Source of the DNA: Morchella semilibera
Taxonomy: Eukaryota; Ascomycota; Pezizomycetes; Pezizales; Morchellaceae
Direction: 5' to 3'
DNA length: 64,000 nucleotides
Assembly: GCA_009192285.1 (NCBI GenBank)
Contig: CM018603.1
Location: 3,712,588 to 3,776,587 of the forward strand
The notes below the pieces were generated by a model. That model saw only the letters and a program-made list of their open reading frames with translations. It was not told where the DNA came from and searched no databases. Positions 5,050 to 64,000 of the stretch are shown here, one piece after another; positions within the stretch are counted from its first letter, which is position 1; each line of letters begins with the position of its first letter. A program made the translations under genes and the position numbers.

Positions 5050-7590
5050 AGGGGCCTGATGCTAACGAGCAGATAGAGGAAGTTTAATAGCTTCTGACTA
5101 ACGATGTGGGAGAGATAAGTAGGCGCAAAGGATTCAAATTGATGATTTGTGTTGAGGGGCACTAACGGAGAGAGGCATAAGAGTTGCCTTATAGATGGTA
5201 GTGTAGGCGGGCAGGAGATGGTGAAGCTATGGCCTTTTGTGTTTTTGCGCCGTGCCTGGGGTATCAATTCCTATTGACATTAGAATACATTTATGTACGA
5301 GCCACTATACCCCTGTATACGTATTAGAGTTTCTCCATAATTGTTTACTTCTTTTCCCTTCATTCTATTGTGAAAATCTGTACAAACCTAACTTAGATTG
5401 GATAGTTTTGCCATTAAAGTTTGATATCCAGAAAATTCCACCGCCGAATTTGACAGGATCAAATGGCGAATTTCTCCAAATCTTTGATATTGATAACAGC
5501 CGATTAAATCTTACTCCTCTTTCTAGTTTATCGATACATATGCATAAGCATAAGAAGCTGGTCCATCTGGGAACGCATCATTTTAATAGTTACCGATTGA
5601 GAGCCAGAAGGTTTCCGTAGTTGTAATAACCCTTTGATCGAGCTCGATGTAGATATGATTTTGTCTAATCAATACTGACGTACCTAGGGTGCCATTTAAT
5701 TAAATTGGAGGTGGCGGCTAAGAGAGGGTAGTTGTATGCTAGTTCGTGTTAGGATCCCAATTTTTTTTTCCTTGGGGTGGATTTAAGACACCGTGGCCTC
5801 CTTGGTAGTGATAGTACATGTATCTTTGCCCTAAATGTAGCATCAGAAGTTCTAATTTCCTTGGTAGGTGGTTACTCTCCCAGTGTTCGCTTGCTTGTAA
5901 CGAGCAATACTATGGTTATATTAGTGCATGATGTGAGTGTATATATTTCCGGTAAATGACACTTTGGAACCTCCCCCGCTCCAACATTTGCTGAGGAAAG
6001 CCATATCGAAAAGTCCCGAAATCATTGATCCAGAACCTCTAGGACCATCTGGAGGACTGGTGGCCTACCTACTTAGACTTAATACAGTTTAATAATGTTC
6101 TATCGTCTTCCCCACGCTCAGACTCTCGTGCTGGCTCCCAAGTATCACTTTGGGGCACCTCAAAGCATAGATGAGATGGAGGGGCAAGACGATTTTGGGG
6201 CAAAGACTCGGTCTACCGTTGAAACCGTGATACATACAGCCAATGCTGCTATAGCGCAATCAGGCATTATTATCTCTTTAAGCCCAAAGTACATGTTCAT
6301 GACTGGTCGACTGCCTTTGCCGGTCCCTCATAAGCCCGCATATATCCTAATCTTCTCAACCGAACACTATCAATGACCATAGTAAGAGGGGGTAGTGGTG
6401 GATTGTACCGGCTTGTCACATCGTACATCTCGGAATCGTCGTATTGCAGGCCACGGCTCTCACTTGTTCGCACCGTTTCATTCCAGCATCTGGGTTTCGG
6501 GAGGCGCCCGAAGGTTCGACCAAGCACCTGAGCTCCTAGCTATCTTATCAGTCCTCATTTGCACATAGGATGCTCGGTGGCAGTGCCACCTAGATCTGCA
6601 AGCCTGACTTTTAATTCTTAAACCTAACCCTAGAACAACTGCCCTAACCCTGGTTTAGGGCAATGATTAGTTAGAGCAAACCCCTCAGGTCTATAAAAAT
6701 GTAGTGATTCTTTAATATTAATATAGTATCGATGGAGCCGAATTGTAATACAATGATCCTGGAGTCGGCTCGCATGGTGATGTGATTTAGGACTTTACCT
6801 TGCCTGGTAGAATATTACGCACCACGCACCTGTGGATATATATACTTGTTCGTCGGAATGCTCACATACAGAACCCGAATGAGATGAAATTATATTAGCA
6901 GCGGGCGCACGGTACTGGGGGGCTGACTGGTCTACCTACCATATATAGAAATAACATATGGCCAAGGCATCGAGATGCCACTATTTGGTACAATTGTTCG
7001 CGGAAGACTATAAACCCTACATGTAGTTGTCTCCACTTCTCTCGGAGAATTTAGAAGGGAAAAGGTGCCAAGGCCTTGACAAATTTACTGCTCGGTTACA
7101 ACCGTAGATCACCATCACGCTAATCTAATTTGTTAGTTCATGAAGAAAGGGGATTAAAATAATCTTTTTCGCGAGGCAGAACTTTTCTTCTCTCCCAACT
7201 TTATTTTCAGACATACAGTTGTTTATCTTGAAGGCGTCGAAAAAGAGCGAAATTACTACCACAGGAAAAGACTTTCCGGGCCATTTCGAGATAGAAATGA
7301 AAACGATGAGTGAGTGCTTGTCCCGTTCTTTCCGTTCAATGATCAAATGTGGTCGCCCAGCTGCAGGTCAAGTGTAATAAGAGGTTTTGATATAACTTCA
7401 CAACCACAACAGCTATTTTCGGTTATATGCGGAACTTTCCATCGCTATATAAAGCATTCTAATGTCATTCGTGGCTGTAAAGTAATATCAAAATCTCTAG
7501 ATTTTGCTTGTTACGTACTGGGTACATTCGTTGTTTAGACCTAACCCACTTCTCTCGACGTAGGGGATGAAGTTTATCTCGTCTAACAAT
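5050..7590. other. intergenic region, no supported gene
   Basis: No recognisable coding sequence. 6627-6662 carries CCTAACCCTAG and GCCCTAACCCTGG followed by TTTAGGGC, which resemble degenerate TTAGGG telomere units and form a 7-base hairpin (GCCCTAA/TTAGGGC). 7314-7590 might hide a first exon of the TRK gene downstream, but I could not identify one. Confidence 0.5.
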
Positions 7591-7597
7591 TCTAACA

Positions 7598-9414: not shown

Positions 9415-12400
9415 ATGGTTATCTAGGTTAGGGTATTTTTCGTTTTGACCCCTATCTTTTTATGGTATGGATTTAGGCTGGATTGTCAAGTCATCAGGGG
9501 CTTGGATTGGGATATTGATGAATCATGAAGGGCTTGGACTGAAACATTGACGGGTCACGAGGGTTTAGACTGGGTTAGCGAATTACAGGGAGATACAAAA
9601 GGCGCTTTTACCATGTAGGTTGTTTTCGGATCTCTTTTTCGTTCATTCTGTTTTGTCTTAGTTATAACATAGATGGCGTACGTATATTGCAATACCTCTA
9701 GCTAGAATTTCTTAGGAATAAAGATGTAAGATTTCCTTGGAGATGACGAAAGTGTGATATATAATGGCTGCCAGTTAACCAGTGCAAATAAGGATTACTC
9801 AATACCCCCGTACAAGCCATAATATACCCTTGGCGGCACTGCACTTAAATCCATATAGGTGCATCCCACCACTCGTCGTAACAACATTTTTATCATCGCG
9901 GCCAGCCAAAATGCCCTACACGCACCCGAAGCTAGGTACATGTATTCATGGACGACGTCAAATTATGAGAATATACAAATTCTCTCCTTCTCTTTCTCTT
10001 CCCTGTCCCCTGCGCTGCTTCTCCTCTTCCTACTAGCCACCCTTTTCACCACCAAGTATATGACGCCTCTATAATCACGGAACCCCGTAGGAGTACTAAC
10101 AAAGCCCCGACCGATATTCCACACAATCGAGAGAACCTCAAATCTTTATCTCGCCGTTGAACTTGAATAACATTTACCCGCCTCCATTCAACACAGTGGG
10201 ACAGCCACGTGTTTCACAGAGCCTATCAACTCTGCAGCAACCCGTATGTTTCGGCGGAAAAACAAGGCAACAACGTTTCTTCCATCTCGGGATCCCAACA
10301 TGGATGAGCACCGTCACCGTATTCAGAGATACTCAACCCAGCAAAATCTTCATTCTGTCGCCACCGCCGACCGGACCACACACCAACCCTGAGACATGAC
10401 CAGAAAAGCACACACCACACCCACCCACACTCACACACACTGCCGTCAACCGCACCTCTCCCGCAAAAGGGAAAAAAAAAAATAAAAAATAAAAAAAATA
10501 AAGTTTAACCTTTTAGCCTTCCCGGCCCACCACCACCATCGAAAAGCCAAGCCCGTTCCCGGCAATCTCGGTTAAACTTTTTTGAGCCGCATGACGCAAT
10601 TTTCAAATGCATGCACGCACGGACCAGGCGCGCTATCGATAAGACAAACATCGGATGAACCCTGGTGGATGGGGTGGGTGCGGCGACTTCCAGCTGACGT
10701 TGGGGATTAAGTTGGTATGATATTAGTTGTATAATTAGCCTTTCATCTCTTCATGGCTCTTATACAACTTTGGAATGCTGCGCATTAGTGGGGGTTGTGC
10801 TGCGCCTTGCGTGGTAACGAACGTCAGGAATCGTTTAAGTCGCTCAAACCAAATGCTATGGTATTTGCGACCCTGTTATAAAAGGCGCAGCATCACTGAG
10901 TTGATAAAGTGGATACCTACTTGTGGCCTGGTAATATCGCGCCGTTACTTGTTATAAATCTCGATCTCAGACTTGCCTGGAGGCAAAAGAAGCCCCCAAA
11001 AACACACTGGGGCGCACATCTGGTGAATATTAGAAGGGAGGCTCTTTTCGCCTAACATTGACCAACCAGAACTTGGGTTTCATGGTGGAGGGCGCCGTAT
11101 GCTAATATGAGGAAGGCTACCAAGGCTTCGCATACGTCTTATAAATAATTAACCCAATGAAATATAACTTAGGCCTCGCATCGACCCCCCTCCAAAAAAG
11201 AACCCGAGCGAAAGCTGTTAGGTAAAGGATTCTCACACGGGCGGCCGGTAATCCAAAAGCAGGGAGTTTCTTCGTGGCTTAGTGTTCCTCGACTCGGGAT
11301 CGACTTCCGAGCAAGTATAATGGCGCCCTGGGGTTGATCTTTACCCCCTGGCAATAATTTTGCGCCATGACCAGTGGTAAATTTCTCGGTCGGACACATA
11401 CATACATTGCCCAGCCGTAAAAAAGCACTACACCGTTATGGGCTCATGTTTAGCCTCTAAATTTGGTCTTCATGAAATATCTAGGGTTTCTGATATTACT
11501 AAATCGAGCCATCTTATGAGGGAATGAATTATACAAGTAAATTTGGACCATTCTAGTCGTTGCGATTCGCGAAAAAGCAACAGCGAGGCATTGTGGTGCT
11601 TTATGATAAGGGTGTGCTGCGCTATCAGCTCCCCTCAAATTCCATACATCCTTTCAGCCACTCATCAGGTCCAAAACAGTTTAGAACGCTTTAACCTATA
11701 CATAGGGAAGGAAAGAAAATCAGAATGACCCGGAGATTTATGCTGCTAGTACGCGTCACGCCCAGGGCCTCTGAATTCCTATAAAAGCCACTCGTATAAG
11801 GGCGAACAGCATAGAACAAAAACTCTGGTTGAGTCAATATATCATTCTAGCCTCTTTAATTTCGTTCCAGGATTGCGTGGAAGAGTGGCGAGCACTTTGG
11901 CCGAGTGATATCTTGTGCAAGCAACCTAGCAAAGGCTGTTGCCGCGACGATTTCAAGGGCGAGTGATCTCTCGTGTTTCAAACACCCAGACTCCACTAGG
12001 TTGCATACATTCTAAACATGACCTCTGCAGGCGGATAGGCTACATATCCCGGGGGGTGAATGTGATGCCATGGAAGTGGAGGCCGTATGGAATCGATTAC
12101 TGATACGATATGAAACTGCTCGTCAATTCGTGACGTTTCTGGACCCGACCACTATTGCATGCCATACAAAAAGGTAGCCTTGACGGGGCTTTTCTGTGTA
12201 TGCAATAGCAGTTGAGTCCGGAAACGCTATGAAATTACGAGCATTATGAATAACCCCCCAATAACCGCCTTGGTAATTACGGAACGCTATAGCATGCATC
12301 TCCCTTTAATTCGGTCACGGATGTTAACTTCGCCACAGTCTCTTTGCTGGGACAGGAGGAATAGAGAAGAGGTGTACGAAACATTTGTGCCTGCCGTAGG

Positions 12401-13370: not shown

Positions 13371-13462
13371 GTTTATTTAAATTTTTTTTTCCCCCTCCCC
13401 TTCTTCCCTTTCTGAGTTTCCTGATGATCTTGGTCCCTATGTTCACATAAAACAATCAAGAC

Positions 13463-13497
<35 letters not shown>

Positions 13498-14680: not shown

Positions 14681-14687
14681 CCTTGAA

Positions 14688-18900: not shown

Positions 18901-21900
18901 CGCTTCCCTTCCTTCCTTCCAACCAACTGAGATTACCTACACATTTCAACGCTTCCAAGTACAAGCCAAGGGTGGGCACTTTACATGGACTGCATTCTCT
19001 TGTCCTTTTCTGCCTACTACTACTCATATAAAGTACATACATCATGTATGTATATATGTATGTTCAATATGTGATTTGACCCCCCCCCCCCCCCACTCTC
19101 TCCCTCTGATATTACTGCTTGCGTTCATTACCAGCGTCTAAATGGAGAGAGGTAGAAAGAAGAAGAGAGAGCGACGGGTGTGTTTCCATCCCGAAAAAGA
19201 TGGTGGACCCGGCCGTGGATCGCCGCCCGCCGTTGCAACATGCACTGATTGGCACAGACACGATACGATATCCTTCCTTCAAGATGCCTCCTCCACTCGC
19301 TCGCTAACGAATCGCCAGTGGGATGCGATGCGGATGAGAGTAGTTAGAACGGGTCAGGATGGTGAGTGGTGGAAGCGCTCCCTCGGCGCAGAAGGGATTT
19401 TGTTTGGAATTGTCATTAGACTGAGATACTTTCTTCCACCTCTTGACCTTTTCATACTGCCTCAAAAAATGGAAGCCGTGAATGCGCGATGAGTAGTTCA
19501 AAATTGAAAAACGACCAAAAAAAAAAGGAAAGGAAAGGGATGAAATAAAAGGTTGGGGAAACTACGGGCAAACAAAGAGCGTAAAACACGGGGATCGCTT
19601 GCGTCAAAGATCGGGCGATGTAAGAAGCAGGACGAGAATGCAGTTTGTCAGTTTGCCCGCAGCGCCAACAGGTAAGAAGCAAGAGAAGCCGAAGCCGATA
19701 TCCTGTGAGGAAAAAAATAAAGTGCGACGGTTTTTGGAGAAGATTAAAGGGATTTATTGTAAATATTGAAGTTAACAAGATATGGAGATTGTCAATAGAA
19801 CTGGACGGGCAACCAGGGCTGGAGATACTTCCGTCGCTATCTTTTTTGGAAAAATGGCGGCTCGTCATTCGCAAGATTTGATATAGAGCACACCAGAATA
19901 TATGCTAAGAAATCCTTAAGAGGGGGTATTGGATTGTTTGTAAACCTGGGAAGCAAACAAGGGAGCAAAAAACAAAACTGTAAACATTCCTGCGCAAAAC
20001 TACTACATCTACGGTTATCGTCGGCGCCATAGGGTGTAGCACCCATGAAACCTAAAGGATATAAATAGCGCCGCGGGGGGGATAGGAAGAAGGTGAAGTT
20101 GTAATCGTTTGGCTGGCTGCGGGCGACCGGGCGACACAGCCAACGGCGCCTCAAGAAGCGTTCTTTAACTGCTATTGTGGATCAGCGGAAGCAGAGCGAC
20201 GTCAGAATCAAATAAATAAGCTACTTGAGAAAGAGCGAATGGGATGAAGAAGATATAAAAAAAAAAAAAACGGGCAAAGCACCTGGCGAACCGTTTGGTT
20301 AATAACAAGGTGATACATGTAATAATAAGTGAGAGTCGCCCAAGTCTCGTGACGACGCGTAAAGTGGTTTTCCGTGACGTGCCTAGCAGTCAGCCAAGGA
20401 AAGCTAGACAGTTGGGCGGGAGGGCGCGGGACGACGCGTTGGCAGGCATCCAGTTCTGAGACAATGCGACCATTCTTAATGTGGAAGTCCCAATCCCGAC
20501 TCCATGGAGGAGAGTACTGGTATACGGAAATGGCGCAAATCATTTGGGATAAACACCGTTAAAAGACATAGTAAAATTGTCATAGGTTTTCAGTCTTGTT
20601 TTCACTCACCTTCTCAACCCTTGAATTCAAATGCGCCGTACTTTTTTTTTTTTTTTGAAGTTAGTATGTACCTAGTGGATCGTGAGAATATTCTAGATTT
20701 GAATTTCCCGAGGTCATTGCGTCACGTCACATGGTCCGAGGCCGGGTAATCTATAAAAAAAGCACCTCATTACGGCAACCGCCGCTGCTCGGAAACCAAA
20801 CGAAAACAACTGGTCTGGTGTTTGAAGTCTTTCCTTCCACCATGAAAAGCTTTTTGGCTCAAACTTTTTTTGAAGAGCTACATATCGCAAAACGATAGAT
20901 AACCGACACACAAAGCTGCCTCAGAAGAACCTCGATGGCAAAATAAAATAAAATAATGAGGGAGGCAAGCTCCCGCCCGGTTGGCAGTGCAGAAACTTTG
21001 AGGGGCGGTCATGGAGATACGCATACAGTCTAGCTTTATAAAACCATGCCTGATGCTTCTAAGGCTGCTTTGCGACGGGTTCAGGCCGTTTTCTTAATGA
21101 CCCAGCGATCTGTCACTCTCGACCTGTCACAACCCGGGTCACTGATACGATCCCCCCAGACCTTGAACCTTTTACCTTTGGATCGCAAGGTACTTGTATG
21201 TATAAATTACTTTATTATGGAAGCCTTCGGACCTCCCTCCGAATTTCTTATTTCTTTCTAGAACAATTTCGATCAATGTTGTTTTCTTGCCATCCTTGTT
21301 TTTTGGGTTCGTGATCATTTTATTTCATATCCCAGGGTTGACAAACCACCCCTCCTCCCCTGGTTTGCGACCCGTGATCATCAAAAGATAGTTGCAACCC
21401 CCCCCCCCGGTGATACCAACAAGAATGGCCCGCGCGAGACTCGGTAAAGGCAGATGTGGGCAAATGCGATGGAGAATTTCCCTCAGAGGAGTAAGCAATC
21501 CCGGATCTCTTTTTCGCCCCACACCACGTTTCTCTAATGTCTCAGAGTAGGTACATAGACCACCTGTTCCACCACTTCCCATCCGCAAAATCTCCCATTG
21601 TGGTGGCTGAGCTCCTTCTCGAACCTTACCCCCTCATAAACTCACCGCCAAACCCAACAACCGAAAACAAGCAGCTTCCAGAAATATTCTTCAGCTTCGA
21701 TCTTCATCAATTTCCCACATTGGACTTGGGAGTGGTTATTTTTTTTTAAATCATGTCAACGGTTTCCATGGACTCCGATTGCCCACTGCAATTTTAACCG
21801 CGAAGTTGTTCATTCCGGAGTACCCGCTTGTCCCCCCACCAGCTTAGAGTGCGTCATGGTCGGCTGTATCACTTACGGCAGCAAGATCGTGTTGGATGTT

Positions 21901-28100: not shown

Positions 28101-31100
28101 ATTGGAAGCTCACTTGTGCTTGTGTCCGTAAATTAGAATGCGAAATCTAAAAGGAGGCATTGTCGTTGGGGGGTAGTACCATTGTGCTAGTTGGGGTGTT
28201 TACTAGGAACGTTATTATCAATATCTAAATAACCACGCAGGAACTAGACGGTACTATGCTCCAGGTACGTACGCAAGTATACGTCTGGTTCAGTGCGAGG
28301 TAAGATTGGTTAAGAACAGAGCGAGAGTGAGTTTTTGGATAAAGGTCGATTAGCTACTTAGAATTCGGTCATCTTCAAGCGCGCTAGACCGTACTAAAGC
28401 CAGCCCCGGATAGCCTGAGAGGACAATATTGTATGACCCGTTCGCCCAAGAATAGAAAGGACAGGTCTCTTTTATAAGAAAGAGAGGACACTTATAGTGC
28501 TAGTGTAGTCAATATAACAAGTACAACCGTCTGATAGCCATGACTGAGAGATCTAGAAAGAATAGAAATTAAGGGTGAGAAAAAACTAACAGATGTTGCA
28601 TACGACGAACTTTAAATTTCATGATCAGTGATATGAAAATCTAGATATCACAAATGAAAAGCACGGGCAGATTGTATGTGCACTCCTGTACTAGTAGGTG
28701 GGCCTGCGGGCCCGAGTGTGATTATACTAAAAGAAGTCGGTTACTTGTAGGCCGAGTCCCGGATATAATTCCGGATGATCAGTGATCTATCGATCAACTA
28801 GCCTAGGTGGGGATTATTAATATGAAGTTGCGTATAAAAGAAATGCAGATAGATGTCCAGGTTATAGCTACCGCCTTTGTGCATAGGTCTAGGAGAGATC
28901 TTCCGAAGGTTTTGACAAAGCATATTCCCAATTTATATTTTGATATCCACTAGATCAATTAAATTATGAAGAAGGTGTACGCAAAGCCCAAGATTCCCAG
29001 CTATTTAGCCACTCCTGAATATTAGAAGATCAAAATCAAAGCATACATAAAGTATGTATTTGGCCGAATTTTGTTTTCTGCAGTACGTGGTGAACGATGA
29101 TACATGTATGTCTGACGCTATATCTCTCATGTAGTGTATTGTAAAGCCACTCTTGAAAAATGTTCGTGATTCATACTTTATAAGATGGTCAGTGCTCAAT
29201 GTGGCTTACAGAGTTGAATCAAAGAACTCAAATGTATCTATAGAATTATAGAAACCTGATAACAGAGAATAGAAACGCTATGAACATCTAATTTGATTTT
29301 AGCCTCTATTAAGTACTGGTAGCTTGAGATTTTAAACATTTCAGTACACAGTTTGATAACTGACTTGAGCCGGACATGTCATACATCCAAATCACGAACA
29401 CTTTTAATGAGTGGCTGTATATATACTTGATCACCACATCCAACCAAGCTATATATATCCGCCCAGACGATCCCATGAATGCTTAGGCCTTGAACTAACT
29501 TGACTGGACGATATAACTTGTTTCATAATTCCCGAATTATTTATCAATAAAACTGATGTGCGTTCGGGACCGGCCTTGACCCGAACTACATGTACATGTA
29601 GTTATGGTTGCATTCTATTATAATGAAGCAATTTCGTGTAGAATGCGACAAAGTAGGCAAAATTGATAGTACTTTAGGACTATGGAAAGTATACTATAGG
29701 TGAAAAAAGGAGATGATAGTATCCCGATTGGGAACCCTTTCATATATGTCCTCATATATATTTATTCTCAAGGAATATTAGTCATAATATGTTATTGCTT
29801 TAATATAGAGACACGCGAAGTAAATTCATGTTATATTATATATTAAGACCTTCTAGTAATCCCTTGCTAGATTTGCCTGAGAAATGAAGGTTGGGATTTG
29901 AAATCTCTTTTTAGAATGCTCTGATATTCTGGATATGAAACACCTAACGGGGACCTTAATATCGAAGTTGGAGATCTCTCTGATATCCTGTAATAGGGGC
30001 TTTTAGTCAGCGGCCCGAACCCATTGCTTGTCCGTGATCCCCCGAACTTGCAGGTGGTCTAGGACATGATTGGCGGAAATTGACTACAGTGCAGACAGGT
30101 AGCCAACCATTTTCTCGGAATATCCATTGATCTACCCTGTTGTGTAGTAAATCTTCTGCAGTTTACCCCGGTTTACATGAGGGCTCGGCGCAGGCTTGAA
30201 AGGATGAAAGTGAAAGTTGCGGCCGACTAAAGCCTCTAATACCGGGGGATCAGTTGGACCGGACCAACACAAAGGATGCCTATAAGTTACGCGCTAAATA
30301 TTATACTAGGATTCATAGCGGAGATCATTAACCCATGATTGGGGTAGCCTACATTCTTTTTGTGCTTTTTCCGTTGGGTGAACAGAAGACCGACCCCAAT
30401 TGGATCTATGGAGCTCGCCGGGGGGAGTAATGATATCAAGTCGTTAAGTAAAGTAGATCGAAAGAGATAATTATGTCATCTAGCTATCCAGCGTACCTCA
30501 TAATACATCAGCTGATCAAACCGGATTCCATTCTGGGCGGGGAAGAGTTTTGTCATGTTATGCGGTTTTTTCTTTTTCTTTTTCTTTTTCTTTCCTTTTC
30601 GCTACGTACCCTCGTGGTCAATTGATCAAGTAAAATCTTCTAACAAATGAGGTCAAGATCTTTCACAAAATGTCAAGGTAGGTGGTGCATGTATGATAGA
30701 ACCTTTCCGGATGATAATACTGAGAACACGGCTGATCAGAGCTATTTTCATAGTATATTCTGAGAGGGACTGATCATTATTGGCGGGAGGTCTTCGCACT
30801 GCATACCAGTCCCGGAATAACCCCCATTCTCATGAACTGCAGGTAGCATGAGCCCCACACAATCAGATGACATGCGCTTGACATGTGGCGGAGTGACAGC
30901 AGGGGTTGGTTGGTTGGTTGATATTTCATGCGTGTAATGACAGTGGGGGAGGTCGGTAGTTCTGAGCATCGTCATATACATCAGGACGATCGATCTTCGG
31001 GGTAAATAAGTGTCGTTTCCAGTACTCTGCTCTTCACAATAACGTGATTTTGGGCATAGAAGATGTTTAGTGTATATTGAGGACATCCATAACGGCCATC

Positions 31101-33430: not shown

Positions 33431-34235
33431 AATATTGATACTGATTGCACCCACGAGGGCGAACAGGACACCTCGGAGGAGAAACACCCGTTTTAGATAC
33501 CAACGGGCCCATCTTATGTCAGTTTTGCAGCAGGGCGAGGAGTAAACATGCAGGCGAAGGCATCTACATAGCAGGGTCCGGTACTTTTTCCAAAAACAGC
33601 CCCCTTATATCCCTCCCCCTCCTGTCAAAAGTAGACGGAGGCCCGTGGCACCATGACGTTGAAGGAGAGAAGAAGCAGAGATTTTCCAGAACATCTCGGC
33701 GAATACGAGATGAAGCGAGAAGATCATCAGGAAGAGTTGTGAGCGGTTCGCTGGTGGCTGGTTTGTGGGCCGTTATCCCTGTCTTATCTGAAACGGCGGA
33801 GAAATGTGAGCTCGAGAAGCGAGATCCCGTGCCCCACAGAATTGGGCACTTGAGTTATGTAGCAGAGTGGGAGTGTTGGGTTGTTTCTGGATGCATGTAA
33901 CGGGGGGCTTAAGCAAGCAGGCGGGGAAGTCGTATGTAGGTGAGTAGAGTGAGTTTTGTAAAATCTTCCGACGGATTTCTTACTCCTCTTCTTATTCTCT
34001 CGGGTGCCACCTGCTACTACTTTATACTGTGCTCCAGCCCTTTTCTATTCTCAGCTTTTTCTTTTTTCTTTTTTTTTTTCCCTTTTATTTGTTCCTTTCC
34101 CATATATCTATCTATTCTCTTGTTTCAAGTCCAGAGCCCAGTTACTTTTGCTTTCATTAGTCTTTCCGCAGAGCGGGTACATGTATGCAAAGAGAAATAC
34201 TTTCATAAAATACCCATTGCTCAACAATCACAACT
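33431..34235. other. intergenic region upstream of membrane-protein gene
   Basis: A 151-codon frame at 33445-33900 has no recognisable domain and an unconvincing composition, so I do not call it a gene. The last ~200 bases are T/C-rich (33990-34130) and probably form the promoter of the gene starting at 34236. Confidence 0.4.
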
Positions 34236-35394: not shown

Positions 35395-35612
35395 CGGTCG
35401 GTCGGTCGGTCGAGGGGTACGGCCCTACATACATACATAAGTACATGTAGTTGGAGTAATGGAATCAAGCGGACAGCTACAGTAGTCGTAGTCGGGTCAC
35501 GGTTTCATTTCCCTCCTGTGGAGATGTGTCGTCTGTGTGTCGTCTGTGTATGTATGTATGTATGTATGTATGTATGTATATAACTACATGTAGCACCCCC
35601 CCCCCCCCCCTC
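35395..35612. repeat. cluster of microsatellites
   Basis: Adjacent simple repeats: GGTC repeat at about 35396-35411, TACA repeat at 35426-35437, (TGTA)n at 35547-35580, then CTACATGTAG and a run of about 15 C near 35596-35610. Confidence 0.9.
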
Positions 35613-36036: not shown

Positions 36037-36098
36037 GGTGCGGGGACGGGGCGGGTGCGGGGACGGGGCGGGTGCGGGACGGGGCGGGTGCGGGGACA
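36037..36098. repeat. GC-rich minisatellite (unit GACGGGGCGGGTGCGGG)
   Basis: Three to four tandem copies of a 16-18-base G-rich unit (GACGGGGCGGGTGCGGG and one-base variants). The G blocks on one strand could allow G-quadruplex formation. Confidence 0.85.
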
Positions 36099-38941: not shown

Positions 38942-39422
38942 TGTGGGGATGGGGACTTTTTTACTTCTACTGTACGGTCTAGATGCTAATTGTTTTACTT
39001 TACTTTCTAGTCCTATGGGAAAAGGTTGTGAGCGAGGGGGAGGTTCAATTCAGGTTGTGAGATGTTTTTCCCCTCACTCATATCATGGTGTTTATTTCCT
39101 TTTTTTTTTTTTTTTTTTCTCTCCAACCCCTGCAGGCAGACGGGTGCTGATGGTTAATTAACTCATTGCATTTCACCCCGCTAGAAAAAAGAAAAGAAAA
39201 AGAGATGCCCCTCACCCGAGGATAAGAAAACGTCCCTGGGGGGGGAGAGTATATAGACTGTATATCCTAAGTACATGTAGAGTTAGAACAGAGTGAGCAG
39301 AATGAACGGAACAGAAGAGCAGAACTAGAGTAGAATTAAAAACTGACCAGCCCGAAAGGAATTAACCCCCCTCCTCCTCAGCACTAAACCAAAGCCCTCC
39401 CCCGATCCAAAACCTCCCCCCA
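38942..39422. promoter_or_regulatory. shared bioF/bioDA divergent intergenic region
   Basis: 481 bases between two start codons pointing outward. It contains a T run at 39100-39119, an A/G-rich tract at 39185-39202, a TATATAGACTGTATAT stretch near 39250-39266 and one TACATGTA palindrome at 39272-39279. Co-regulation of the two biotin genes from here is inferred from the arrangement. Confidence 0.6.
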
Positions 39423-41961: not shown

Positions 41962-42813
41962 ACTTGGTATGTATGTAGTGTTAGCAATGGGCACAGACGG
42001 GGGGATGTATGTATCTTATAGTAGGAAACTAGAAGTATGTAGCTCTTTAATCTTGTAGCTGGCCAAAGAAGCACTATTTTCAGTCGTATAGGACAATGGT
42101 GAGTTGGTATATATTGCAATATAAAGTTCTCTATAAACAGAAAGCGTTAGAGCGCCACCACCAAACAGCGGACGAAGAAGTGTGGGGTGGACGTAGGGAA
42201 ACTACATGTACTTATTCTGTTAGAAAGACTGTAAAGGTTGTTTGGATCCCACCACTTGCTTTGGTCCGGGGTGGCCTCCTCGAGTGATAATCCGTGACCA
42301 CAGCGTCGGGCGCGGAGTTTAGTCCGGATCCCCCTCCACAAGCCGAAGTAGCGGCACAGACCCCGCCCCCGGCGAAAGCGTACCTTCTGTACAAGGGCAC
42401 TCCCCCATAACGGCCGCACCTCCCGCCTTCAGCACCAGCAGTACCCCCGAGCACACCGTTATAGCAAGGCGCTGTATAACCCTACGTACAGAGCTGAGGG
42501 CAGGGTGCTCATGGCTAGGCAGGACTGACCGCCACCTGCTGCGGGGCGGGACATCGATAGGGGCGGCGTGTCCAGCAACCTATGCAAGTGAAGAGGAGGA
42601 GTGGTGGTGGACACCAGGGCTAGGGTTTCGTCACGGCATCTCACTCGGCGGAAATGATTCCTGGTCCGATTGCTGTGGCGGGCGCAGTGATTGTTTACCA
42701 TTTTACTTTATTCAGACCAAGTACTCTTTCCGGCAGTCCTCGCCCTACACACACACCAATGGGTCGGTCACATACATCTATTTAATTATATACAAAAACG
42801 AAGGGGGGAGACC

Positions 42814-43652: not shown

Positions 43653-44013
43653 TGTGGGGCGGTGAAGGTGAAGAGGTGAAGATGGAGGTGATGTTGATCA
43701 AAGTTGAAGTCGAGATGCGATGTCAGTGATCGATCATCAAATTAAGTTTCCGCTGAAGAATTTCCGTTCGAGCCGCAGGTCTTGGCACAGGGATCATTTC
43801 CCTTAAGAACACGAAATAAGTAAAAACATCCAGGCGGACAACGACACCACAACAGCTTTTATTCTCTCTCCTCTCTTCTCTCTCTTCTTCTCTTCTCTCT
43901 CTCCTCTACACCTCTCCCCCTCTATCTATCTATACCTCGACCCTACACTCCTATATATATATAAGATATATATAACCCCTCAGCATCCATACACAGGCCC
44001 CACACCCCACCCC
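43653..44013. promoter_or_regulatory. divergent promoter region with CT tract and TATA-like sequence
   Basis: Lies between two outward-pointing start codons. 43859-43920 is an almost pure C/T tract on the helicase sense strand, followed by TATATATATAAGATATATATAA at about 43953-43975, some 40-60 bases before the helicase ATG. Together these resemble a fungal core promoter and pyrimidine-rich transcription start area for the helicase gene. Confidence 0.55.
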
Positions 44014-47000: not shown

Positions 47001-48649
47001 CATCATGGCCCATCACTCGGTCACACTAACCAATGATCGCCCGTGCAGGAACCATGGAGATTCAGCGCTGCCTCGACGCAATCAAATACGTGCCCGATGG
47101 CTCCCACCGCTTCCACGCCCTCCCACTGCACGCCTCCCTCTCCCCCTCCGAGCAACGCCGTGTCTTCGCCCCCCCGCCCCCCAACAAACGCAAGATCATC
47201 GCCGCCACAAACGTCGCCGAGACCTCAATCACCATTGACGACGTCGTGGCCGTCATCGACACCGGCCGCGTCAAAGAAACCTCCTACAACGCCGAAACCA
47301 ACATGGTCAAGCTCCTCGAGACCTGGGCCTCCAAAGCCGCGTGCAAGCAGCGGCGCGGGCGCGCGGGCCGTGTCTCGGCCGGCGTCTGCTACAAGCTCTA
47401 CACCCGCAACGCAGAGGCCAAGATGCCCGACCGGCCAGAACCCGAGCTGCTGCGCGTCCCGCTAGAACAGACCTGCCTGGGCGTCAAGCACATGGGCGTC
47501 CGCGACGTACGGGCCTTCCTTGCCTCGGCCATCTCCCCGCCCGCCACCCTCGCCGTCGACGGGGCGCTGAACCTACTGACGCGGATGGGCGCGCTGTCGG
47601 GCGACGAGCTGACGGCACTGGGAAAGCACATGGCCATGATCCCCGCGGACCTGCGCTGCAGCAAGCTCATGGTCTACGGCGCAATGTTTGGCTGTCTGGA
47701 CGCCACCGTGGCCATCGCCAGCATCCTCACGGCGCGGTCCCCGTTCGCTGCCGTACCCCTTGAGCACCGCGAGGCGGCAAAGTCATCGCGCATGTCGTTT
47801 GCACCCGGCGCGGGCGACCTCCTGGGCGACCTGCGCGCGTTCGAGAAGTGGGGGGAGCTGCGCGGGGCGCTGGCCATCCGCGAGCTGCGCCGCTGGTGCG
47901 ACGAGAACTTTGTCAGCCACCACACGTGCATGGACGTGCTCTCAAACATACGCCAGTACGTCGACGCCCTGAAGGACATTGGCTTCCTGCCCGGCCACTA
48001 CGCGCCCTGGTCCGCCGGCGGCGCCGCCTACAACCGGCAGGGCGCCAACAGCGCGCTGCTGCGGGGCCTGATCGCGGGGGCCTTCTCGCCCGGTGTTGCG
48101 CGCGTCTCGGTCCCGGAGACACGGTTCGCGAATAGTGCTGTTGGCGCTGTCGCGCTGGACCCCGAGGCCCGCGCGGTCAAGTTTTGGGCGGAGGAGGGTG
48201 CAAGGGTGTTTATTCATCCCGGGAGCACGCTGTTTGGCGCGGCGTCCGGCTGGGGCCGCGATGCGTTTGTGAGTTATGTGGTGAAGGTTGGGACGGCGGC
48301 GGCGGCGGCGGCGGACGGGAAGGTGTATCTTCGGGAGTGTACTCGTGCGTCTCCCCTCCCTAGTAGTAATATTACATGTAGCTAACATATCCATATACAA
48401 ATAGCGGTCAACGCATACTCGCTGCTCCTGTTTGGCGGCGCGCTCGCCGTCGACACCATGGGGCGCGGCATCACGGTCGACGGGTGGCTGCGGCTGCGCG
48501 GGTGGGGCCGCATCGGAATGCTTGTGGCGCAGCTGAGGGGGATGCTGGACCGGGTGCTGGCGCGAAAGATCGAGGAGCCTGAGATGGACCTCTGTGGGAG
48601 TGAGGTTGTGGACTGCGCGAGGAGGCTGGTGGAGGGGAATGGTATGTGA
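44014..48649 (+). CDS. DEVH-box RNA helicase, DHX57/YLR419W type (UBA-RWD-helicase)
   Basis: Putative ATP-dependent RNA helicase of about 1,400 residues. Exons: 44014-44247 (or to 44237), ~44508-46954, 47049-48344, 48405-48649. Domains in order: GKSWTGKLPQTLFYELCVKNGW near the N-terminus, a UBA-like segment (AITELAGLGFRRAHAEEACDW, EEALEWLLVHVPEDD), an RWD-like region (EEQVSLEAIWGERYTRVSN), then helicase motifs GETGSGKST (I), TQPRRISALGLADRVAEE (Ia), DEVHERSLDTDF (II, DEVH rather than DEAH), SATLDADVF (III), TNVAETSITIDDV (V) and QRRGRAGR (VI). The HA2 and OB-fold regions end with VNAYSLLLFGGALAVDT and GWLRLRGWGRIG. The 46955-47048 and 48345-48404 introns restore FLPGTMEIQRC and CTPVNAYS. One problem: the frame changes between ~44874 and 44985 without a good intron. 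The first-intron boundaries are also ambiguous (donor GTTCTA at 44248 or GTATGC at 44238; acceptor 44507-44512). Confidence 0.93.
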
Positions 48650-51600
48650 GGGCGTTAGGTTAGGTAGGGAGGGCGTTAGGTTAGGTAGCTTGGGTATGTA
48701 GGTTTTTAGTTTAGTTTGGAATGGAATGTGTTTTGTGCTGCTATCGTCAGGGTGAAGTGATTATCTGGTCCTGTAGATCTCTCTGTAGTTCTGCGATCTT
48801 ATGGTGTGGCACCGTCGGCCCTCCTACATAAGGGAATACTCTACTACTCTCTGTACGGGGGGTCAACACCCTATGAAGTAATAAAATAATAATAATAAAG
48901 AGGTCAACACCCAGACCGCACACCAACCACCACCCTCCACTCTCCACACGCAATCACAACCCATCACTCGACGACCGGTCATAGCTTCTCACTCGGGGTG
49001 CAGCTTAGTTAGGTGCCGCCGGCGGAGACATGTAGACCCCGCACGGTTGTAACGACTTGGCATTACGTCCAGTCCTAGCTGCCAGCCCTATTTTGGATCG
49101 GCTACTGACCCGGCCGGTATCTAAGGTGGGCTAATAAACACACGCTGAACGGCGACCCGCAGACACTGTGCCGGGGCGTTACCGTCTGCGCGTGGCGGGT
49201 TGGGGTGGGCCTGTAAACTGGGGCTGCGCTAGCCGCGGGTGCGTTGGTGCGTTGAGGCGGCGGTCAGATCTATGGGGTGGCCACAGCTACTCGGGGTGCC
49301 GGGGACTGCATATATGTATATGCCTACCCGCCGGCGAGGCTATTATATTACCATTGCCGCTGGGGGGGTGGTCTTACTGCAAGCGTTGCCAAGAAGTGGA
49401 GGGCCCATAAACTACAGCGGCACAAATGAAAGCAACGTGGCGTGGCCTAGTGGTAATACACTGGGCTTCGTCATATGACCACGACAGGTTCAACCCCTGG
49501 TGGGAGCAGTGGTGAGAATGCCCGACATGGTAGCGACGCTCTTGAGGGATGAGTACTCACTCACGTAAGTCTTTTGTTGCCGGCTTTTTTTTAGCCTTGG
49601 GTGCTGCTCTGTATGGTGTGTAGGTTTTGATCCTCTACGGTACGTACTAATACCTCGCGGCCGCCGGTTGTAGGTGATTCTCTACTTTGAAGTAGTACAG
49701 CTGTTATTGGGTGCTAGCTTAGTCAAATACCCCAGTCGGTCGTGCCCGACCAGTCATATTACAGAAACTTTCAAAGCGGATGTAATCCATAGTAACAATA
49801 GTGCCAGTACCGCCGTCCAGCTGCTATGTTACCGTACCTGTTGTGGGGGGGTGGCGCTGCATATATCGCCTGTCGGTATGGTGGCTGCGCTGCGTCCTGT
49901 CTGTCTGGGGGATGTTTTCCGTTCGACCGGTCCGTTGTTGGCCTGTTCTGGAGCTGCTCTGTTCACAAGATGGGTATTAATGGCTTTATTGGTGATTATA
50001 GATAAAAGCCCAGAAGAGTGCACTAGAATACACTTGCAAGAGTCCCTTTAGACAATACCCTCTAGATAAACCGCCCATATGATCCGTCCATACCCACAGC
50101 TCTCATCCCCCGGCGTTAGGCCGACGTTAGGCCCTTCCCTAGCAGCAATAAAAATAAAAACATGCATGTCTTGGGCGCTACGGCGCCAGTAAGGGGCTGG
50201 TATTAGTAGTTAGTTATAGGTATAGCTCCTGGACTTCTCGGGGACGGGGACGGCGAGGGCTAGCTGGGCTCTGTACGTCCCACAATAACGTCCCCGTCCC
50301 GCCCATAGGGCCCCCGGGGCTGCTTCCACGGACTGGACAGAGCAGAGCAGAGCAGCACCAGGACCGCTGGGTATGTACAGATAGCAGTAGGTAACAGAGG
50401 TGGCGTCGCCAGGGGGCGTGACGGTAGTAATATCTGAACCGTTCCAGGCTGCTGTAAACGGGATCTCCCTGTACTGTCGAAGACCTATAATTATAAGAGT
50501 AGTCGCCCATAACGGTAATGTCTACGGCCGTCCCAGGCCTTGTTAATTGATGGGGCTGGCCCTTGACCAGCATATACAAGGGTAATATAAGAGTGGTCCC
50601 GGTCGACGAACCCTTTATTACAGAAGACCTGACTGTAGCTACAACGCCGACATGCAGGGCCTGCTAGCTAACGGTTCGAACCCAACATGCGCCAGACTAC
50701 TCACCAGCGGGGGTAGTAACTAACTGCCACAACACACTCTCGAGACCTTTAAGAGCTAGATACCGCAGACAATGTACCTGTGGTATACACAAAAGCTAAC
50801 AGCACCCCCTCCCGGCCCACCCGGACAATGAACCCCCCGATTCACTTACACTTTTACACTTACACCCCCCCCTTACGTGGGTGGGGTATGGACGTACGCC
50901 CGCACTAATCTGCAGCTGGGGTCCTACATATGTAACCCCCAAGCCCACCCAGCCTATTTGCGGGATACATACATATACCGCTCATAAGAGGAACTCGGAG
51001 GACCTATATATTGTATGTACCGTGGTGTTTGGTCCAACGACTAAACATTGTCTCGTCCGACGCGACCTGCACTTCAACTACCCCTACGTAGAGCCAGCCT
51101 ACTTGCCGGTGGAACGCACGGGTGCTATAATGCCCGGTTTCTATGCCCAAGCCCCAAACAGGAGCGGGCGGGCATATTCTATCACTGCGACTGGTCTCGG
51201 TCTCTGTTTCCATGCTAAAGTAAACCCAGTCTCTACTTGTCCACCCGCTACGAGGCGTACATACATGTAGTTGTCTGCCCAGCTACACATATGACCATCC
51301 CACCAAATTGAAGCTTACAACAACCCAGCGCCACTATCCAAGTACAAGTACATACCACCATCTAGCCCCCTACCACTGGTTATGGCAGTGGGCAGCAGGG
51401 CAACACCCCCATACACACATTACTATAAACGCACCCTCTACACAAACACACCAAAGGACAGCCACCAAAGCACGCGACAGGCCAGATAGCGTCCTCACCA
51501 GACGGTATGATCCACATCTCTCGACACTGCAGCTGTCCTACACAACACCAACCCCCCGCCCAAACACACAAGGAGCCGGAAATACAGTTACCACCTCCCA

Positions 51601-58064: not shown

Positions 58065-58605
58065 TATTGGATTTGTGGGCTGGGTTTGTTCGCCATAGCT
58101 TTCCCTTTTCCTTTTCCCTTTTTTTTTTTTTTTGTGATTTCTATGGGGAACGAGTACATGTAATTTCTTTTCTGCTCGCTTAGTTACATGTGTTGTAAGA
58201 AAGGGATGTACACAGAAAAGGAATGGAAACGCTACTTCGTCGCTAGGCCTGAGAACTTTTACTATATCTTCATGTACTATATCAACCTCCCCAGCACTTC
58301 AAATCAATCTGGAGAATCAGCATCGGCGCAACTTGTTTTCTCCATCTTTGACTATCTGGTTGGGCTTTGGGACATCTGAGGCTACTTATAATACTGGATC
58401 TGGGCCGACGCATCCTTCACATCTGCCCAGACGATGTATTAACGAGGAGGAAAAACTAGCTTCTTTGATGGTTTTTTTTTTCAAAGACGGGCTTTTTACG
58501 GAAGATAATTCTCGAAAAGGACGGAAGACGTCTTGACCGTTCATATTAGCATGCCTGATAACAGAATTTTCCGAAGATCAGGGGGCGTTCTGTGTAGCCG
58601 CTATA
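58065..58605. other. 3' flank of F-box-like gene
   Basis: T run at 58119-58134 and TACATGTA at 58155-58162, both probably in the 3' untranslated region. No gene. Confidence 0.5.
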
Positions 58606-58950: not shown

Positions 58951-61455
58951 TAGTATAGCCTTTTCGTAATCTCTCTCGATACTTTTGCTTGAACCCCTCA
59001 ATATTTCGCTCCCCGCGATCCATATTACTAATGGTTCGGCTTGTACTACCTCTACAAGAAAGAGAGTGTGTGAGTGATCGAGGTAGGAAAAGTATCAGTG
59101 GATGAATGGACCTCATGTGGGGAAGACCGGTTATATATGGGATTTTCAAGTGGGGCGAGATTGCATGCCTGGGCCGTCAACTTATAACTTGTAGGGGTAC
59201 TCATATCGGAACTTCTGAAGGAAATTGTTAGAGGGCACTCTTTTATCCCATTTCCACTCTCCGTCCTATAGCTACGACTCTCTAACTTGATATAGTCTAA
59301 TATTTACTTCTTGAGACAAATATCATTTATCAGATAAGGGAGCTATTACGCCTATAGCTCTGTTTTGACTAGATCTAAGTTATGCGTACGTTCTAGATCT
59401 AGGAGATTCAACATTCACCCAGTTCCTATAAAGACTACTGATAATGAGCTTCCTAGCGCTATCCTAACATAGGATATAAAACTAGCTTAACCTACCTTAT
59501 GATACATATACCCAAGATTTATGGCACAGATTTATAGAACCGGCTTTAACCCGACGCTCTCTGGACGGACATATGTTTTAAATTCAGTCAATGGATTAAA
59601 ATGAACAGCAAGGATCTACCACAATAAGATCGAGTGATAGAATATGACCTAGAGTAATCTGAGGCTACTAATTAATTAGTACATATTGCGTTTAGGCACC
59701 TCAGCTACATACACTTCGAGCCTAAAGCCTGGAGGGTACCCGAATATGCTTGTCGATAGAGCTATTGCAGTCAACGAGCCTCTAATCTTCACCACGTCTA
59801 TCAGAATGGATACCGGGTAGTGCATTGTCCACACACGAGTATTTGTAACCAGGGCCACGGGCAACGCTCCAAGATGTCGTCCAGATGAGACGGAAAGAAC
59901 CGATGTACTCCATATGTGTATACCCAAGTTTTAAGCCAAAATCACCAGCTTCCAGGTAAATGACACGTACCTCTCAGGACAACTTATCAGCTCCTGGGCT
60001 ACATGTAGTCCTCCCATATAGGCATATATACGATGCACTAACTGATTTGAATTGACTTCTGAACCGATTCACTCATGTCTGGTGTGCGCACTATCAATCG
60101 CAACTCTATCCTAAAGGTTGAAATGACCATACACTACATACGGAATCTATAATATATATACCCTAGAGAGTTGTACAGAACGAACGCTCGCATCACTATT
60201 TTCTAGGAGAGTCGTCACTAGTATATCCTTTATATCCCCCGAGATCCCTTAACTACAGGGCTATTGATCATTGGCAGGCAGTTTTGTCTTGGCGCTACGC
60301 CATGCGGCACATTCCACCTTCATCTGCACTTTTCACGTTCAGGATCTCTTTGATCGATACATACACTCAAGTCAATCCAGCATATATTTCTCGACCATGG
60401 GTGAAACATAGCCCCGTTGTACTACACAGACGATGAGGTTAAGCGAACACAACACCAATCATCGCCCAAAGACCCTTGTGTCACATCAGTGCTTAAGTAC
60501 ATACCACAAAAAGTCCTGTAGTAGGCACATATCATTCGACCGAATATGATGGAGGGGATGGTGTTGGAGTATCAGGTGGGATTGGTTGGAGTAAGTAAGT
60601 AGGTACTCTCTCTCATGTGGCAGACCAATATTCCTTATCTCTATGTAGGTATCTCTACATGTAGATACACACACTCCATGTACCCCAACATCACGTTGAT
60701 TTTTAGGCACCCGATCTCACTTCAGCCCATTAACTACATATAGGTTCGCGAAGGGGCCTGATAAGATGTTATCCAGTTCTCTTATGTATGTTCTACCAGA
60801 TGTTTCCTTTAAAAAGGTGGTGTGCTAAGGTAAGAGCAAAGTTTTCAGTACAGGTGAATGTCCAATAACAGTTGCTCCTATCAGCGACTATTCTCATGAC
60901 CCAACAGAAGACTGGTAAGTACTCTGATAGATGCTTGAGTGAAATAAAGTACATGCGGCCAGCTCCAAAACTAGAATAATAACTTTCCACACTAGTGCGC
61001 CGAGCGAACAGACAGAACGTGCGATCTGATCGGCGCCAGCGGCCTCACATCACGTTTCTAGAGTTACCATACTTTACACATGTGCACATGCCTATGGAGA
61101 AAAAGAAAATATATACCTTCCAAAACTAATTCCACGCAAGCCTTCTCTAGCGATAATTCTCTTAGCCTCACGAACTAGTGGAGATGGGCCCAATAGCTTT
61201 AGAGTAAAGCTTGCCATAACCCCGCCCTTTCGAGATTTACTTACATGTCACATTTTCGGGATTCTTCCTTGACTTTCAAAGACAAACTTTACCAAAAAGT
61301 AGAATATGATACTCATTTACAGCATCTCCTACGCTCGGTACCCCACTCGTACCGATTATATATACCACAGGTCTATAGAGAATCCATTTCAATATATAAA
61401 GGGCTGAAAGAACCCCCTCTAATTTCCAACGCTGTGATATCAAACAACCACAACC
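58951..61455. other. AT-rich intergenic region, no supported gene
   Basis: Short frames only. TACATGTA at 60000-60007 and 60656-60663. The stretch just before 61456 (about 61370-61455) contains TATATAAAG near 61393 and is a plausible promoter for the next gene. Confidence 0.5.
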
Positions 61456-62194
61456 ATGAAGCTCCCAAGTCTATTTTCCCGTGCGGTACTAACCTTTACC
61501 CTCCTTACACTTAGTACTTGCCAGGATGCCGGAACCGTGTCATTTCCTATTACAACAACCATTACTTCGGGGCCAAACCCAGTAACTCTTACCCTTACAG
61601 GGCCTACACTTGTAACCTCTTACATCGTCTCCAAACCTACCACCCTGGGACCAGCAACGGCTCCGCCTTTTGTGACCGCACCTACAACAGTTGTCTTTGA
61701 AAACGAACTATACACGGTGACAGCTACTTTCACCTCGGGCCAAACCGTTCCCTCTAATGCCTTTGTCTTGACACCGGCCCCAACATGGACTACAGTAACA
61801 ATACAACCCGTTGGGGCAGAGACAGCTGAGGACACTCTTACAAGTCTAAAATACACAACAACATATGGATGGAGCTATGATCCAGATGTCACGATAACAA
61901 CCAAGGTTATACCCTGTCATGTTAATGGAATATACGGAGATTGAAAGCTTATATGTACAATAGTCCACACATACCTCCAACTCAGAATCATCAGATTCGA
62001 ATTCAAAAGACTCTAATGACAAGTTTAATCTTGGCCTATGGCTGCCAATTATTCTTCTCACGATGTTCACTTTTATTATAGTCCCGGTGGCGTGCATTGT
62101 ATGGATGTGGGGTGGTTTCAAGCGTAGAACACCACCAGATGATTGTGCAAAAAGCCAATCGGAAAAATCTGTTGATGAGTCAGATATCTGTTAG
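61456..62194 (+). CDS. Thr-rich single-pass membrane protein with signal peptide
   Basis: Exon 1 from 61456 opens with a signal peptide (MKLPSLFSRAVLTFTLLTLS), then a Thr/Pro/Val-rich ectodomain with repeated TTT, TLTLTGPT and PTT phrases, likely O-glycosylated. Read straight on, the frame stops at 61944. However, GTTATA at 61906 and ACAATAG at 61961-61963 would form a 58-base intron that keeps frame and adds exon 2 (61964-62194): a Ser/Asn linker, a transmembrane helix (LWLPIILLTMFTFIIVPVAC), then FKRR and a short acidic tail. A second donor at 61921 is possible. The spliced product is about 226 residues. The layout resembles cell-wall stress sensors of fungi but no family is proven. Confidence 0.65.
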
Positions 62195-64000
62195 TATAGC
62201 GACGGCGGGGGGGGTTTTTTTTTCTTGTCTTTTGACGGGGGGAGGAATTTTATGAATGACGACATTAATGACAACATGGCGTTTTATTTGGCCCTATTTG
62301 ATAGTACCAGCTTTCTAGGGAGCCCCTTTAGTCACGGGTTTCTTTTAAATATTTGTACAGTGTTTGATATCTATCGCTTCTAATATTTCTTATTTTATTG
62401 GTCCCGATATCCTTTTTATTTCTATCCTAATTAACTCATTGAGTTGATCTGATCTGATTTGGTATGTAAAAAAGCCAAACACACGCAGCGAAAAAGAAAA
62501 GACGAGGTTGGGGGGGGTGTACCTTCTTTCTTTCCTTACTGTAGTTCATGGATCATCACTCGTTTATAATTAATACCTCTCTTAACATTTAGGTGATTAC
62601 TTTATTATCCATCGTCCGTACTCAGCTGCAGTAAGACCTGACCCCCCCGAGAAAAAAAAAAGGAAAAAAGAAAAAAAAGCAAGTCTAGTGTGGCTTTACT
62701 TACAGATCTCGTTATCTCTCTTATCAAATAACTGGTCTCCCATATAAATCCCGCTCCTCTACTATCTGGCGGATGTGTGTGTCTCGTGCGTTAATTAGAT
62801 GGTCGGAAACTGTTGCACTTATAAAAATTTCCGACCTTTTAATTAACGACTACATGTATGCAAGTAAGACCTTGGAGAATCTCTCTCATGCATCAACGTG
62901 CCCTCTCCAGGAAGTGATTGACCAAAACATAATAGAGCAGCAACGTGCCAGATAGGAGGGTCACCTGGGATATAACACGCGCGCAGGAAAACGAGGTCTC
63001 AAATACCGGCCAACAGAATCTCAAATAAATAATATGTGCATACCCCATCGAGGCAAGATCGGCATCTAACAAACCCTGAGACATATACGAAGCAGGTTGG
63101 TTTCATCTAATTGTCTGAGGATTTGGGTTGCTATGCAGTACTGCATGAACCCTGGCCCCAATAAGAAATACATGCACTCACAGGCGATCACTCGCACGCA
63201 GTCGGCGCTAGCCGGCTTCTACTATACATGTACGGTACTGTATGTAGCTAGTATCAGACTAACTATATTCGCTAGTTACTAATTCTCACCCGGGCAAACA
63301 TTCGTTGGTTCAGTTAATTGACCGCATGATTCGGAGGAGCAAGCATGAACCCCAGGTATTCATTCGGTCCTTGTAAGACCCTACGGTATGCGTTGAGTAA
63401 CCAAGATCAAGAGAAAAGCGAAAATTGCAAAAATATATACTTCCACATATTGTAGACAATTCAAATCTGCATATAGATAGCCAGGTACCTACATGTAGGT
63501 AGCCACTAGTGATAACCCTCATATCAAAAGGTAAAATTACTATCATAGAGAAGATAGGTTACGTAACTAGACAAAGGAGGAGTTTAGGGGAAAAAAGAAC
63601 AAAAAAAAAAAGAAAAAAACTCCATCTCCCGAGATAAATAAAACACAATGAAACAAAAAGGATAATAAAGAGTGAGGAACCACCATTTCTTTTTGTTACG
63701 CATCACCGGCCCCCTGAACCAACCCCAAAGCAACTAGACATCCAGCCGTGAATATGAAAATCAGGTAAAAAAAAAAAGTCAATAAAGAATAAAACTGGCC
63801 CAAGATTCAGGCTTAGTAGCCCTCTACTAATTCAACAAACTTGCCAGGCCTCTCGCCATCTTTCTACTTGTAGTTGTTGTATTGGTGAAGGTCAGATCAC
63901 CCATCTCGCACCAGTTGCTGACCGGCAAACAGTTAATGTATTTGCACCATGAACACTTCTTATCGTATAGATAAAAGTTGTTGATCAATACAATGGTTAA
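62195..64000. other. intergenic region to window end, no supported gene
   Basis: Contains A-rich runs (62652-62678, 63600-63618, 63767-63776) and TACATGTA at 62851, 63225 and 63490. No coding frame or RNA gene is supported. Confidence 0.55.

Follow-up and report, generated by a model that had tools for sequence, protein, structure and literature searches.

A genome-wide over-represented eight-base palindrome in non-coding DNA of Morchella semilibera, a putative site for an abundant symmetric DNA-binding protein

The 8-bp palindrome TACATGTA occurs 23 times in a 64-kb stretch of the Morchella semilibera genome (contig CM018603.1, positions 3,712,588 to 3,776,587; hereafter the window), where 0.77 copies are expected (100 dinucleotide shuffles, maximum 3). 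Over the whole assembly (56.8 Mb, 23 contigs) it reaches 22,206 copies, i.e. 391 per Mb, whereas Markov models of order 1-3, trained on a 284 kb sample of the genome, predict 653-1,067, so that the excess amounts to about 21-34x. This over-representation is real, genome-wide and striking. On balance we lean towards TACATGTA being recognised, in intergenic DNA, by an abundant DNA-binding protein of two-fold symmetry, with some copies arranged as if for adjacent dimers. A first-pass annotation of the window had drawn attention to the word. All of its 22 coordinates proved correct, as did its five extensions to the 10-base palindrome CTACATGTAG; a 23rd copy, at 989, had been missed. The genome-wide count that it had proposed as a check lies far from the Markov expectation.

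Abundance and placement of the palindrome

Several comparisons set TACATGTA apart from other words. In 267 kb of sampled sequence it has the highest ratio of observed to expected copies (23) among the 8-mers with a both-strand expectation >4. In a survey of 8-bp palindromes over 314 kb it was found 81 times against 3.6 expected; a general preference for palindromes was rejected, since no other exceeded about 7x its expectation except TATATATA and ATATATAT. Just two of the 16 TA-N4-TA palindromes rose above 5x, one being TACATGTA and the other TATATATA, a simple repeat. The enrichment of TACATGTA reached 27.5x in the 160 kb of sampled non-coding DNA that were left once repeat-rich loci had been excluded. 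The longer palindrome CTACATGTAG occurs 2,029 times genome-wide versus 30 times for its reversed word. The reversed word of the core, ATGTACAT, occurs 3,723 times genome-wide and is an imperfect control, because it is also found within overlapping copies of TACATGTA (TACATGTACATGTA).

The sample was restricted in two ways. A locus chosen around a TACATGTA copy (L001) and one chosen around a homeobox (L027) were excluded from most sample counts, and the 284,000 bases used for placement also exclude the duplicate-contig loci L010, L013 and L026. Six loci rich in transposable elements (L004, L006, L012, L016, L020 and L021) were left out of the counts of non-coding enrichment, flanks, neighbours and gene distances; this exclusion was post hoc, chosen after self-similarity and site counts (1 copy in 60 kb) were known. 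As three contig pairs look redundant, the genome-wide counts would be inflated by about a tenth if the redundancy spans whole contigs. Contigs C9 and C10 look redundant, their sampled stretches (L009/L010) being 100% identical over 9.8 kb, as do C21 and C22 (L025/L026; 99.8% over 9.4 kb, 2 mismatches and 11 gaps). Contigs C12 and C13 (L012/L013) share 94-99% identity over 4.2 and 2.0 kb, in which no TACATGTA copy lies.

Genes were predicted by a simple fourth-order Markov gene finder with introns, trained on the sample. Such ab initio predictions are incomplete, and the finder missed the TrkH gene of the window (7826-8659); distances to genes are therefore approximate. By these models, coding sequence (82 kb) holds 2 of the 76 copies in the 284 kb, introns (11 kb) a single one, and the remaining non-coding DNA (190 kb) the 73 others. 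Coding sequence stands at background level, because the Markov rate predicts about one copy in the coding DNA sampled. In the window, none of the 23 copies is coding by the gene models, 48373 falls in a predicted intron, and for all 23 copies the surrounding 120 bp have a negative coding score even in the best of the six frames. The claims that the word is over-represented in non-coding DNA and absent from the coding exons of the window, with 48373 intronic, are thus upheld, with 73 of the 76 sample copies in predicted non-coding DNA outside introns. With respect to gene ends, density was high 1000-1500 bp upstream of start codons (10 copies in 10.2 kb; P 0.014, ten bins) and low in the first 200 bp past stop codons (repeat-rich loci set aside). 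Contrasts between these bins are suggestive only, since there are ten of them with P values of 0.007 (a bin past stop codons, taken up below) and 0.014.

Core, flanks and pairing of the copies

The core behaves as a nearly all-or-none unit: a single base inserted between its halves (TACANTGTA) removes nearly all of the excess (908 copies genome-wide versus 650-847 expected). In the non-coding sample, those single-mismatch neighbours that exceed background are chiefly transitions at positions 1, 2 and 3. Genome-wide neighbour counts cover two classes: the outer A to G change, TGCATGTA, gives 5,179 copies versus 1,450-1,722 expected, and the central A to G change, TACGTGTA, 1,722 versus 732-1,005, an excess 3.5-5x smaller. 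Outside the core, the flanks favour TAnn...nnTA symmetrically: TA stands at +4, four bases away, in 42 of 146 flanks (28.8%), versus 10.9% for all TA. The extended site is TAnnTACATGTAnnTA.

The copies also cluster. A second copy starts 8-38 bp on in 2,666 matches, where 269 would be expected at random and 477 if only the non-coding share can hold copies. A spacing of exactly 10 bp accounts for 606 pairs, whereas each of the 30 other spacings within 8-38 bp has 69 on average, which makes an 8.8-fold peak. Among the 50 such pairs listed, all on contig C1, spacers differ, and four triplets at 10-bp steps each contain two different spacers; since spacers vary, these listed pairs and triplets are not simple tandem duplications. 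An origin as tandem microsatellites was likewise rejected, as copies do not form arrays and spacers are variable. Of the first-pass description of copies as scattered singly, with no tandem array, the second half holds; the first does so only in part, in view of the clustering and of the overlap between 29587 and 29593.

Membership of a single repeat family, or derivation from the end of a miniature inverted-repeat transposable element (MITE), was rejected for the copies examined (five window copies against the genome and 78 sample flanks), so that these do not all fall within one family; it was membership of one family by all copies that had been named as fatal to the initial proposal. When the 78 site flanks (+-100 bp) were compared by blastn with 320 kb of sampled sequence, 12 had any match beyond themselves and duplicate contigs, all of them partial. 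A genome search with 2.4 kb spanning the five window copies found matches elsewhere only at a MITE lying outside the copies. A single copy, L004:1262, is spanned by an alignment with a second sampled locus, L016. This copy sits in retroelement-like sequence and arose by substitution, because the alignment is gapless.

The MITE (~29140-29425, ~285 bp) has a TA target duplication and inverted ends of the CAG...CTG type, one end reading AAG. It matches 39 other stretches of the genome at 76-91% identity (40 of 66 candidates scored; some lie on duplicate contigs). Further TA-flanked inverted-repeat stretches with other ends, e.g. TCCCTTRGACGG and GAGAGTTTAAGCC, were seen at L007, L008, L009, L011 and L017; the genome seems rich in TA-flanked MITEs, because several such stretches have differing ends.

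A putative binding site weighed against other origins

A binding site fits these observations best, because of the rigid half-site spacing, the symmetric flanks, the 10-bp pairs and the position-specific neighbours. TACATGTA would be the core of a site bound by an abundant homodimeric protein acting in intergenic DNA throughout the genome. Each half-site would comprise TGTA and, beyond it and separated by two bases, a less strongly preferred TA, so that the full site reads TAnnTACATGTAnnTA. Two dimers could lie side by side at a centre-to-centre distance of exactly 10 bp, one turn of the helix, and this would explain why TACATGTA-NN-TACATGTA is in excess. Since there are about two copies per gene (gene number estimated), a general regulatory or chromatin-architecture factor would be likelier than a regulator of one pathway. 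We infer from the sequence pattern that a protein reads TACATGTA, that it is dimeric and that selection keeps the copies, as well as what binding would do. Were the copies protein sites, intergenic regions throughout the genome would be marked by a single factor, which one probe could retrieve. Of the three interpretations first put forward for the word, a genome-wide sequence preference holds true as a description, a binding site agrees best with the data, and the remnant of many small elements is retained as the less likely rival discussed below.

A number of observations weigh against a binding site. The copy number is very high for a single factor. The placement does not resemble that of a promoter element: within 500 bp upstream of start codons, density is 0.27 per kb (5 copies in 18.5 kb) versus 0.46 in sampled non-coding DNA, and 13 copies fall in the 11.2 kb lying 200-500 bp past stop codons (uncorrected P 0.007, ten bins). 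The preference for flanking TA is weaker but present at TA-CA-TA and TA-CAA-TA (24-25%), so it is not unique to TACATGTA; at about 3.6x other offsets, it accounts for part of the 8.8-fold peak at 10 bp. No peak at 20 or 30 bp is visible among 100 clustered matches listed. In the flanks of the MITE family, CATG stands directly after TA in 3 of 25 cases versus 1.1% of all TA, a connection with transposons that a binding site by itself would not lead one to expect. As to a possible reader, the single Homeobox_KN match in the genome reads NWFINARRRR across a predicted splice, with isoleucine as residue 50, which we take to be Meis/TGIF-like and not the alanine presumably diagnostic of Irx. Five Homeodomain matches lie at four distinct places, and the two places read are both of WFQN type (WFQNR). 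An Irx-type homeodomain as the reader is unsupported so far (Homeobox_KN 1/1 of isoleucine type; 2/4 homeodomain places WFQN). TACATGTA is reported to be the preferred site of Irx-family TALE homeodomains in work cited by PMC3520976.

The strongest rival, which we regard as unlikely but serious, holds that the copies are excision scars of Tc1/mariner-superfamily transposons or MITEs, tolerated only outside genes. An element would enter at TA and duplicate it; on exit it would leave CA and TG from its ends, turning TA into TACATGTA. The word is indeed identical to the Tc1 excision footprint, as cited in a portion of PMC3520976, and Tc1-type transposases are present in this genome (69 DDE_3 matches, of which 57 pass the cut-off; duplicate contigs contribute some) together with TA-flanked MITEs of the CAG...CTG type, whose copies adjoin CATG beyond chance, as given above. 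Scars would likewise avoid exons, and TA-nn-TA targets would also produce 10-bp pairs. The partial-scar words TACATA/TATGTA are raised 2.0-2.6x (microsatellites contribute), and TATCGATA, the scar expected of TCCCT-ended MITEs, occurs 10 times versus 2.1 expected (4.8x).

Neutral scars, however, should decay evenly at both A positions, which is not what the smaller central A to G excess indicates. CpG depletion is mild (ratio 0.78), a value that also leaves an origin of TACATGTA by CpG decay unsupported. The one MITE family that can be read (25 of 67 flank rows, those at genome-search matches) prefers a pyrimidine-purine (YR) step after TA in 18 of 25 flanks, and this is not matched by the TACATGTA flanks (41 of 146; all TA 27%; P 5e-5); TA at +4 is common to both sets (12 of 25 in the MITE flanks). 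The three-base scar words TACAGTA/TACTGTA are raised only 1.6-1.9x, the model would demand that elements had inserted and left again, with fixation, tens of thousands of times, and the sole alignable copy arose by substitution. The Tc1 footprint thus shares its word with the Morchella palindrome but differs from it in the 22,206 copies, the uneven neighbours and flanks unlike the target preference of one local MITE family. Sampled duplicate contigs, searched for empty-TA alleles, show no difference at a TACATGTA copy. Excision scars keep some weight because another transposon family could be their source. If the copies are scars, a single word would document an unusually large number of transposon arrivals and departures.

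More doubtful is a mutational or slippage by-product, in which TACATGTA would arise without any protein in cryptically simple intergenic DNA rich in TA, TACA and TGTA. TACATACA and TATATATA are also enriched in the non-coding sample (11x and 13x), TACATA/TATGTA are raised within 40 bp of copies (22 versus 6.5), and 2 of the 23 window copies adjoin TACA/TGTA tracts. Yet the inverted unit TACATGTA is enriched 27.5x as opposed to 11.1x for the direct unit TACATACA, and of the TA-N4-TA palindromes only one other, itself a simple repeat, passes 5x; the variable spacers of pairs and triplets and the near-background count of TACANTGTA also speak against slippage. Least probable of all appears some other sequence-directed process, e.g. 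modification of the DNA at CATG, which is symmetric, or a signal for RNA 3' ends that operates on both strands: cyanobacterial highly iterated palindromes are tied to methyltransferases (PMC4390886) and the density of copies is raised between 200 and 1000 bp past stop codons (25 in 26.6 kb), but CATG alone is not enriched (670 versus 604-647 expected), and an RNA signal would not need both halves, while TGTA alone reaches just 1.27x expectation.

Unrelated oomycetes carry the identical word as a highly abundant promoter motif. Passages of two articles describe TACATGTA as Phytophthora motif-1, which lies upstream of 12,070 genes and shows a correlation with infection-stage expression (PMC3520976), and as M93, present 4,150 times in P. 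infestans promoters with a suggested role in general growth (PMC3597505); in both it is over-represented in stage-induced promoters. Within its accessible text, PMC3520976 considered and dismissed a Tc1 footprint and proposed Homeobox_KN proteins as candidates. The likeness to the putative binding site of Morchella lies in an identical 8-bp palindrome that is very abundant and proposed as a homodimer site in those passages (PMC3520976, PMC3597505). The Phytophthora motif, in contrast, belongs to an oomycete, is defined by promoters and linked to stage expression, whereas here there is no enrichment 0-500 bp upstream of predicted start codons; its sister word TACCGGTA (M94) shows no excess here (2 copies versus 2.0-2.4 expected). 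HIP1 of cyanobacteria, GCGATCGC, resembles TACATGTA as one 8-bp palindrome dispersed genome-wide at high density (PMC4390886), and differs in that we deal here with a eukaryote whose coding sequence is at background level. It is possible, though we would say so only tentatively, that TACATGTA is a eukaryotic counterpart of the highly iterated palindromes, with ~20,000 selected rigid sites, often 10-bp paired dimers, read by an abundant protein that organises intergenic DNA. The MoIsw2 palindrome of Magnaporthe was set aside as a parallel, CATG never being printed in the available text of PMC11481914. Among the open-access papers listed by our searches, judged from titles and abstract openings, none concerns such a motif in fungi.

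Copies and genes in the window

The copies in the window are collected in Table 1. The genes recognised there encode TrkH, a cyclin, two aminotransferase-domain proteins read as biotin genes, a DHX29-like helicase and an FAD oxidoreductase; a fungal Zn2Cys6 cluster lies just under its cut-off by profile match. An Rfam scan of the window gave no match, and ARAGORN found no tRNA in it.

Table 1. Copies of TACATGTA in the 64-kb window and their surroundings
Feature	Positions	Strand	Context	Basis
TACATGTA	989..996	.	absent from the first-pass list	sequence match
TACATGTA	5815..5822	.		sequence match
TACATGTA	7018..7025	.	CTACATGTAG core	sequence match + flanks
TACATGTA	9937..9944	.		sequence match
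TACATGTA	20314..20321	.		sequence match
TACATGTA	29101..29108	.	~30 bp outside a MITE	sequence match + genome search
TACATGTACATGTA	29587..29600	.	two overlapping TACATGTA copies (29587, 29593)	sequence match + flanks
TACATGTA	31214..31221	.		sequence match
TACATGTA	31264..31271	.		sequence match
TACATGTA	34178..34185	.		sequence match
TACATGTA	35442..35449	.	adjoins short TACA repeat	sequence match + flanks
TACATGTA	35585..35592	.	CTACATGTAG core; adjoins (TGTA)8 tract 35547-35579	sequence match + flanks
TACATGTA	39272..39279	.	between divergent predicted aminotransferase-domain genes (biotin-type)	match + gene models
TACATGTA	42203..42210	.	242 bp past predicted stop codon (ends 41961)	match + gene models
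TACATGTA	48373..48380	.	inside predicted intron of DHX29-like helicase gene	match + gene models
TACATGTA	51262..51269	.		sequence match
TACATGTA	58155..58162	.	91 bp past predicted stop codon (ends 58064)	match + gene models
TACATGTA	60000..60007	.	CTACATGTAG core	sequence match + flanks
TACATGTA	60656..60663	.	CTACATGTAG core	sequence match + flanks
TACATGTA	62851..62858	.		sequence match
TACATGTA	63225..63232	.		sequence match
TACATGTA	63490..63497	.	CTACATGTAG core; 337 bp past predicted stop of minus-strand gene beginning 63827	match + gene models

Base composition varies along the window. Positions 36000-48000 have 61-63% G+C, versus 49% just to the left and 55%, then 50%, to the right; this block holds the two aminotransferase-domain genes, most of the DHX29-like helicase gene and only two TACATGTA copies. 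A second candidate word, ATCACTCG/CGAGTGAT, is 13x over-represented in the non-coding sample (43 versus 3.3 expected). Long G/C homopolymer runs occur in the non-coding DNA of the window, e.g. 28 G at 17085-17112, and the sample contains 102 ten-base C/G runs versus 0.6 expected.

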